In this document: positions 11,301 to 14,300 of the stretch, one piece after another | How positions within the stretch are numbered: position 1 is the stretch's first letter | Layout of the letters: each line of letters opens with the position of its first letter | Source: Anarhynchus alexandrinus | Lineage: Eukaryota; Chordata; Aves; Charadriiformes; Charadriidae | Direction of reading: 5' to 3' | NCBI GenBank assembly: GCA_008711295.1 | Contig: VUYV01000053.1 | Span: 4,589,162-4,653,161 of the forward strand | Length of the DNA stretch: 64,000 nucleotides | The notes under the pieces: model-generated | The model's input: the letters and a program-made list of their open reading frames with translations, nothing else | Told to the model about the DNA's origin: nothing | Database searches by the model: none | Position numbers and translations under genes: made by a program

Positions 11301-14300
11301 GATTTCCATGGAACGATTTCTGTGTTGACATAATATCCCTATAATTAATGAATAATTGAACCTAACACCAAGTCTGTTTGTTATGCTAAATTTGGCCCTG
11401 GTGAGTGCTGTGAGCTTTTAAACAGACTTTCCTCATTACCCCTGCTCTGTGCTCCAGTGGGCTTGATGAGTGGCCTGTATTTGGAACGTTTCTAGGTGGA
11501 AGATGGGGAGGAACTGGGAGCAGTTTACAGGGAATGTGTTTGCGGATCAAATTGTCTGGACACTTGTACCACTTTCAAAAGCTTGGTTTGATCTTGTCAT
11601 GTGAAGAAACTGATATATTTAAGACCTTGAGGCATTAAAGCTTGGGCATCACTTGAAGTAATTTTAATATTTGCATTGAATAACGAGTATTCGTTAGACC
11701 GTAGCTAAATCTGTATCTGGATATATTAGCCTCTTTTCTCATACACACATAGGCTTGAAGTATTTGACGTGTCTCAGAAGTCATAGTGGGGGAAAGACAG
11801 GGTTATGTATTTTTGTAGGCAATGCAATATTTAAAACTTAAAATACAGAGACTGGAAAAATTACATACTTTATAAACTTAATCTAGAGGTGCCTGCTTTT
11901 TTCAAGTCTTACTGATTTCAAATTGAGCATGAGTGCTAAACAACCTTGAGAATAAGGCTCATTATTGCACGTAGTAATGTCAGATAGGGATAAGTGTGGA
12001 GTACCCTCATAGACCTATCTGTCTAGGCCTGGTCTCTCCAGTTCCAGGAGGCAACGCCACGTATGCTACTTCATAAACCAGTGACCTCCATTGTAAAAAC
12101 AATTAGTGTTCCCCTCACCCGCTGTGTCTTGGAAGGCCACTCCGCATGCCGGGGCTGTGATAATGATGTGATTTCTGAGCAGAGGATGGCCCACCCCTTC
12201 TTACTACGGTGGCGATGTCCTGCAAACCCAAACCCCGTGGACACACAGAACAAGCCCCAGGGTGATTTTACACAGTTTCCTGCCTTTCACTGTCTCAGCC
12301 CTGTGTTTCGTCTGTGGGCACTGTCACAGGCATAGCCTACCATCCTGCTGACCTGCCACAGTCCATCCCTGGGGCAGCCAGAGCAAGTGGAAGACGGGAG
12401 GGAAATGGGGCCTGAAGCAGTTAAGTGTAGCTCCAGTACAGCTTAATGGACCTCAGATTAACGCTGAGCAAAGTTGGAAAAAAACCATCAGCCTTTTTTC
12501 AGTACACAGAAACTGCCAAATTGCAAAAGCCCTGACAGTTGATCAGCTCTAATACTTGTGTAAATGTACTGTATGTATCGCCTTGTACTTTGTCTAGTAG
12601 TCTAACTGCTGGCGACTTAATTTGGCTTTGAAGCCGCAGACACAAAATGTTAGTGACCTGGTATTTTTTTCTTGCTGCTAGCTAGCTGAAGTGTGGGAAC
12701 ATACTATGGTGGGCAATGAGAAAGTTGTGTTTTATGCCCTAATGAAACTTAACAGGATGAGGAAGAACAAATAACTTGTGACTCTTGCCCCAGTCCTCAG
12801 AATCCTGGAAAACAAAAATTAGCTAGAGCTCATAGTGTGTCTCACTGCAGAGGGAAGGCACAGAAACAGACCATCTGATGCTTCTACCCCATCTTTCTCT
12901 TGCTCTCGGGATTCAGTTGTCTAATGCATTTAAGAATGCCCTGTGTTGAGGACCTCAGTGATGTCTGAGGAGATCTTTTTAAGTTTACTTCCTCAATGCA
13001 AATTTTCAAAAATTAGGTACTTTGCTAAATAATCCTGAAAGTTTTAGATTACCTCAGTTTTATTCCGTAGGGAGCTCTACAATTTTACAACATGTGATTT
13101 CAAGGCAAGTAAGGCGCATATGATAAAGCTGTCAGGAGATACCTGATGGGATAAGTTCTCAAATGTGACATTTTCACATAAGTAGTGGGTTTGGTTCCTG
13201 CCTGGGAGAGGTTTTCTTTGAGCTCTGTTAGCTGACCTACTGTTATGCTGGACTCTGAGCAGGTTCAGGAAACCTGAAGTACAGTTTTAAGGTCGAATTT
13301 GTATGGTTTTACATGTGTCAATGTAAAGTAGCACTCTGTTCAAAACAAAAACAAAACAAAGACACACACCCACCCCCAATGCAAAAACCCAAACCACCCC
13401 AAACTTGACATGTGATTAAAATGAAGGGAAAAAGACACTTTAAGGGGAGATAGCAGAGGGCAGATAGCCTCTAGTGAGGCTACTCAGAGCATCGATTTCT
13501 CATAGAGCCATAGAAATTTTTGAGGGAAGATGATTTGCACTGGTCGTTCTATTGCTTCTGGGTTTCTGAAGTCAGTAGTCATTTCTCAAAAATCACCTTT
13601 ACTAACCTTGATTGTCTTTCCTTGTCACGGAATTGTAAATAGTGCTCTTTCCTTACCTTGTTAGGAATGCTGCAATGAAAGCCTTAATTCATTCACGTTT
13701 GTTGAGTTGCACAAAGAGTAGAGAGAGGAGTGTTCTGTAGGAATGTTTATAAAAATGAAGAAAGGCTTGAAAAAGCGTGGAAGCAAATGAATGCGTGTCC
13801 TTATGCGAGCAGAAGTGATGTGTGGTGGAAAAAGTTAGAACCAAGAGCAAAGACTTCCTCACTAGCTTTCATTGATAAGCGACAGAGCATTGCTTAACCT
13901 GCTGTATTTTATTTTTAAGCTAAGGAGGAGCACTTACTATTCCACTCAGTGTATCAGCCATAAACAAAATTCTTCATCATTGATCATGACCGGTAGTTAA
14001 TGCCCTGCTTGTTGTTAGTCATATATCCTGAAATGAAGCCAAGGCCAATTTAGCTTCCTAACAAAACGGCTATTCACTGAGTGATTTATTGCAGCTATAA
14101 ACTAAAACTAACAGTTTATTATCGTAACAGGTCTTTAAAAGGACAGAATTTTTCAGCACAGCTGAACAACTGCAACAGTATTTTGTGCCTTTCCAGAGCA
14201 GGGTAATTATTAAATACTGGCACTGAAGCCTTTTTTTTTTTTTTGTGAAAAGTTTGAAAACAAGAATTTTTCAAAGATATCCATAAATATTGCTGGGCTT

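Follow-up and report, generated by a model that had tools for sequence, protein, structure and literature searches.

SCUBE2 promotes the release of Hedgehog from cells, and its cysteine-rich (CR) modules are of the GCC2/GCC3 or ephrin-receptor-like type (PF07699, Ephrin_rec_like). One intron of the SCUBE2 gene of Anarhynchus alexandrinus contains a segment of 171 bases resembling the exon for the first of these modules (CR1), which raises the question of whether the segment is such an exon, now dead, and if so, how often birds have lost it. The reading arrived at here, to which we assign a probability of about 0.9, is that the segment is what remains of the CR1 exon, skipped in this species, and that the same exon was, to judge from gene models, lost at least four times in birds, with waterfowl and emu keeping it under strong constraint.

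Apart from CR1, the gene appears in good order. In the window (the whole 64-kb stretch of DNA that was analysed) all of its exons lie on the forward strand: an intact EGF9 exon (2269..2391; the exons for EGF1-8 are located upstream of the window, on contig C53), the last spacer exon (6301..6504, ending in phase 1 and contributing 13 protein letters, not shown, in front of the CR array), the intact exons for CR2 (15015..15182) and CR3 (17792..17953), two intact CUB exons (19148..19345 and 19946..20098), an intact exon for the C-terminal tail (21182..21261) and the last coding exon with the stop codon (22064..22216). From 6301..6504 to 22064..22216, with CR1 skipped, every exon is preceded by AG and all but the last are followed by GT. 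When position 6504 is joined to 15015, the start of the CR2 exon that would now follow it, a single frame results that is open to the normal final stop, and the predicted protein passes from the spacer directly into CR2 (22 protein letters across the junction, not shown). The SCUBE2 of the Muscovy duck, which has CR1 (P0077), maps onto the nine EGF, spacer, CR2, CR3, both CUB and tail exons at about 70 to 100%, and the exon sequence is free of stops except in the relic (78.6% identity); two stops in the match over CUB exon 2 are both in the intron part upstream of the acceptor. Thus, nine EGF exons, the spacer, CR2, CR3 and the two CUB exons are present and open, the signal-peptide exon was not located, and of the three CR motifs described for SCUBE2 (PMC10214685), Anarhynchus alexandrinus has two, CR1 being dead. 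The closest SCUBE2 among the database matches listed is that of the little egret (736/741 residues), with gulls at 734. A search for solved structures similar to the CR array yielded only distant matches, a mastigoneme-like protein and thyroglobulins. Elsewhere in the window (1415-1603, reverse strand), an open stretch matches Pfam RVT_1 weakly (E 0.015, below the cut-off); we take it to resemble the reverse transcriptase of a CR1-type LINE.

The segment is located at 12682..12852 (forward strand) in the present intron of 8,510 bases (6505..15014), between the last spacer exon and the CR2 exon. The exon boundaries on either side (6504 and 15015) are both phase 1, and the segment itself is phase 1-1 by alignment, as the earlier note had proposed for a stretch of this length in this intron. 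Once the G contributed by the upstream exon is added, 57 codons result (54 protein letters, not shown), and the in-frame stops already described are found at codons 3, 13 and 24; of these, the one at codon 3 falls on a cysteine codon. The acceptor flank (12662..12681) is normal-looking, pyrimidine-rich and with AG at its end. The donor place (12853..12858), which had been overlooked before, reads GGAAGG and has no GT. The exon is therefore dead twice over, as three stops and a GG in place of the donor GT preclude its normal translation and splicing. The stops by themselves say little, given that three or fewer occur in 5,290 of 8,339 stretches of the same length from the same intron. For that reason, the case for a dead exon rests on alignment, place and frame.

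Each of these points to CR1. Without a gap, the relic is identical at 44 of 57 residues to the CR1 of swan (Cygnus), goose (Anser) and emu, with scores of 236-237; for 500 residue shuffles the mean scores were 3 to 5 and the highest was 36.5, and the alignments score 12 to 26 standard deviations above them, so that the resemblance is not of the kind that shuffled sequence yields, a doubt the earlier note had itself raised. Among turtles and lizards, identities range from 34 to 39 of 57 (39 each for Trachemys and Lacerta), and tuatara (36), echidna (33), otter (31), axolotl (30) and coelacanth (31) follow; the gapless match to the mammalian exon at roughly half of the residues, which had been estimated by hand, is borne out by the otter. 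With X placed at the stops, the relic peptide is recognized by PF07699 at 34.6 bits. A CR1 profile built from nine orthologs scored the relic at 89.2 bits on the window, followed by CR3 (29.2), CR2 (19.5) and a next-best place at 4.4, which compares with a best of 4.6 bits in 20 base-shuffled windows. When the open frames of SCUBE1 and SCUBE3 from the same genome were compared with 83 kb around SCUBE2, they, too, led to the relic (E 8e-10 and 1.7e-7). Homology to the CR1 exon is thus unambiguous by alignment, profile scan and mapping of the duck protein, and in the expected place: the segment 12682..12852 is the former CR1 exon of SCUBE2, and it is dead.

Compared with the living CR1 (PF07699) of SCUBE2 from duck, goose, swan, emu, crocodilians, turtles and squamates, the relic has the same place, length (57 residues) and phase by alignment, but it carries three stops, of which one stands in for a cysteine, and its donor lacks GT. 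An origin from SCUBE1 or SCUBE3 was rejected, as the relic shares 44 of 57 residues with SCUBE2 orthologs versus 26 and 24 of 57, respectively, with the CR1 of these paralogs in its own genome. The paralogs, both with an intact CR1 in this genome, carry a homologous module in the homologous place, but their exons are open and have usable donors (GC in SCUBE1, GT in SCUBE3). For the SCUBE1-like CR1 exon (G000:C84:3843527-3843694) the apparent donor is GCAAGT, provided that the alignment places the exon end correctly; that of the SCUBE3-like exon is GTAAGG.

An intact, expressed copy in the same intron, which the earlier note had named as evidence against its reading, was not found; nor was any intact CR1 of the SCUBE2 type found in the window or in the 1.19-Gb assembly (1,076 contigs, which may be incomplete). 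The relic DNA occurs once in the assembly. Searched against all of it, the relic peptide found itself (8.7e-32), the CR1 of SCUBE3 (1.5e-6) and SCUBE1 (3.5e-6), and three weaker places (0.006 or more).

The status of CR1 in other birds was read from protein models. The query was the joined model without CR1 and the best 120 of 1,803 matches were used, a list that favours CR1-less proteins, from a database clustered at 90% identity, which may hide members. One protein per species was kept, leaving out duplicates and contigs P0034, P0035, P0036 and P0044, which gave 86 bird species in what we take to be 24 orders. In 65 of the 86 (Falco cherrug counted among them) the gene models pass from one flanking exon straight to the other; this group includes chicken, Chinese quail, turkey, ostrich, a rhea and a tinamou, as well as 22 species names spread over parrots, gulls, raptors, owls, falcons and pigeons. 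All three Galliformes among the matches listed have the direct junction. CR1 is intact in six of the 86 (among the matches listed), the emu and all five Anatidae (Anser cygnoides, Cygnus olor, Anas platyrhynchos, Anas acuta and Cairina moschata). Crocodilians, turtles and lizards among the matches listed keep it. Over 260 proteins, the CR1 score was bimodal (84-95 and 179-326, none between), and PF07699 was found three times in emu SCUBE2 and twice in that of the egret. The proposal that bird SCUBE2 has lost its first CR module thus holds for the protein of Anarhynchus alexandrinus and not for birds as a whole, for in Anatidae and emu the module is intact and tightly conserved.

Exon death was observed in DNA in the window, and for the 80 other species the status comes from gene models, which can omit living exons. 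It could therefore be argued that the loss is single, late and private to Anarhynchus alexandrinus or its close kin, and that many living CR1 exons elsewhere have simply escaped annotation. This is the strongest of the alternatives, yet we consider it improbable. The direct junction is found in 65 of 86 species with models from many annotation sources, and without exception in the Galliformes listed. Moreover, a search with emu CR1 alone (best 120 of 380 matches) retrieved no bird besides the emu and the five Anatidae, the other matches listed being turtles, lizards, tuatara, crocodilians, monotremes, other mammals and amphibians; likewise, emu spacer plus CR1 as the query (best 120 of 1,772) revealed no further bird with an intact CR1. 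In 14 of the 86 models (11 of them passerine) the CR1 slot is taken by unrelated filler, not CR1. Lastly, four contigs that match chicken SCUBE2 at 533/533, 638/638, 637/638 and 637/638 residues also cross the junction directly, without CR1. The contigs (2,285 to 6,372 bases, taking the longest per protein) are shorter than the 8,510-base intron of Anarhynchus alexandrinus, and the absence of introns suggests that they are cDNA.

The filler in the 14 models (P0084, P0089, P0100-P0104, P0106-P0108, P0111, P0116, P0117 and P0120) is intron-like, and users of the database may take it for a divergent module.

One species, the emperor penguin (P0079), fits none of these groups. Its model has, behind unrelated residues, the second half of a CR1, which terminates where the old donor was; apparently, this is the penguin's own relic. 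The penguin half has no stop and none of the changes of the matching half of the window relic. Because no change is common to both in the visible half, the two relics seem to have decayed differently there, a pattern that is compatible with one loss as well as with several and does not decide between them. The penguin model, together with the normal-looking acceptor in the window, could be taken as a sign that the relic serves as a cryptic poison exon, spliced in at times and lowering the amount of SCUBE2 mRNA via nonsense-mediated decay. However, there is no GT at the donor place, and the listed bird models as well as the chicken-matching contigs join the flanks directly, which makes such a role quite unlikely. 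Transcripts that include the segment, the other observation that had been named as speaking against its death, were not encountered among the proteins and contigs listed: none contains the segment as a whole, although in the penguin model half of that bird's own relic, the second, is included.

If the same exon was lost widely, the number of losses follows from where it survived. Ostrich is placed outside the other palaeognaths, with rhea, tinamous, kiwi, emu and cassowary inside; Galliformes stand beside Anseriformes, and Neoaves outside both. On this tree, the accepted one rather than one computed here, the gene models suggest at least four separate losses of CR1 (ostrich, rhea/tinamou as one or two, Galliformes and Neoaves), because emu and Anatidae have it intact. 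A single ancient loss in the ancestor of birds, followed by a regain in waterfowl and emu, for instance from a paralog, would need one loss where the former scheme needs four or more. Against it, the CR1 of emu and that of swan are identical at all but 3 of 57 residues, and their differences from alligator CR1 number 12 (emu) and 11 (swan); the paralogous CR1 exons of Anarhynchus alexandrinus are far less similar to SCUBE2 CR1, and dead exons rarely return. We regard a regain as highly improbable.

Repeated loss of an exon that had been kept elsewhere is thus the preferred reading, and the close agreement of emu and swan also bears on constraint. In neutral simulations of 1,000 runs each, three or fewer differences came about 6 times at 0.1 substitutions per site and never at 0.2 or at 0.3. 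As 3/57 is rare under neutrality, CR1 has been constrained in the lineages of emu and swan. We consider it probable, though with less confidence than the reading as a whole, that a deeply conserved CR1 was discarded in parallel at least four times (ostrich, rhea/tinamou, Galliformes and Neoaves) and left nearly unchanged in waterfowl and emu, that something in early birds had made it conditionally dispensable, and that the chicken, the classic Sonic hedgehog model, is a natural CR1-deletion animal. Lineage-specific loss of a coding exon with symmetric phase is a known general kind of event, in which a module is removed with the frame preserved and a relic may stay behind in the intron, as observed here; what differs is that the gene models point to four or more losses of one deeply conserved exon within one class. 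As far as we have seen, the repeated loss of SCUBE2 CR1 is new. The bird phallus, which we had presumed might be a correlate of CR1 retention, was dropped as a candidate: ostrich, rhea and tinamous are without CR1.

The age of the loss in the lineage of Anarhynchus alexandrinus can be approximated from the decay of the relic. Measured against the residues of emu and goose, it has accumulated at least 11 protein-changing substitutions over 124.5 sites, which suggests, at an assumed neutral rate of 1.9e-9 per site and year, that CR1 was lost ∼47 My ago (23-83). At the likewise assumed rates of 1.2e-9 and 2.5e-9, the estimate becomes 74 My (37-132) and 35 My (18-63), respectively. The dating fits both one loss at the root of Neoaves and several later losses, and cannot tell them apart. 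Stops make up 3 of the 11 inferred protein changes, compared with 6.4% expected under neutrality (P about 0.03), a slight departure from simple neutral decay. Indels are absent where about 1.5 would be expected if the indel:substitution ratio were 0.1 (P 0.22), which is a mild deviation as well. The view of the earlier note that, with no indels yet, the loss was fairly recent or the decay slow was fair, but "fairly recent" now means tens of millions of years, and the limits are wide. That a sequencing or assembly error in a living exon mimics all this is very nearly out of the question, even though a single assembly was used, in view of 11 inferred protein changes in 171 bases, a broken donor and clean CR2 and CR3 exons next to it.

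How the loss might be tolerated is suggested by the architecture of the array. In Anarhynchus alexandrinus the relic would always be skipped, leaving SCUBE2 with two CR modules, CR2 and CR3. The CR exons all have phase 1-1 and begin with x-x-Cys, and CR2 would take the place of CR1 behind the 13 residues of the spacer; because of these two properties, neither the frame nor the cysteine spacing behind the spacer would be altered by removing CR1, which may be why the loss was tolerated. The array has 20 cysteines and four N-glycosylation motifs in emu and swan, compared with 14 and three in egret and chicken. The loss of CR1 would thus remove six cysteines as one block and leave CR3 with its three N-glycosylation motifs. 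For SCUBE1, the available text of a review reports that any single CR N-glycan is enough for cell-surface binding (PMC10214685); because one suffices there, the remaining motifs in CR3 may, by analogy, cover for CR1 in SCUBE2.

The same review of the SCUBE family, published in 2023, assigns one exon to each of the three CR motifs in zebrafish, mouse and human and notes that neither the exact functions nor the structures of these motifs have yet been worked out; its tree includes an eagle, and the words "chicken" and "avian" are absent from its main text, as far as available (PMC10214685). In the open-licence literature searched, no report of a loss of SCUBE2 CR1 in birds was found. SCUBE2 without the CR domain and CUB was described as inactive in one study (PMC4873810) and as retaining reduced activity in another (PMC12881369), and in the accessible parts of both, the deletion constructs take out the whole CR domain together with CUB, not CR1 alone. 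Evolution has accepted a SCUBE2 without CR1, and has done so in several lineages provided that the gene models are correct; this speaks against a need for CR1 in the core role of the protein. Duck or emu compared with chicken would offer natural pairs with and without CR1 for a direct test, and work on chick SCUBE2 may have involved a protein with two CR modules.
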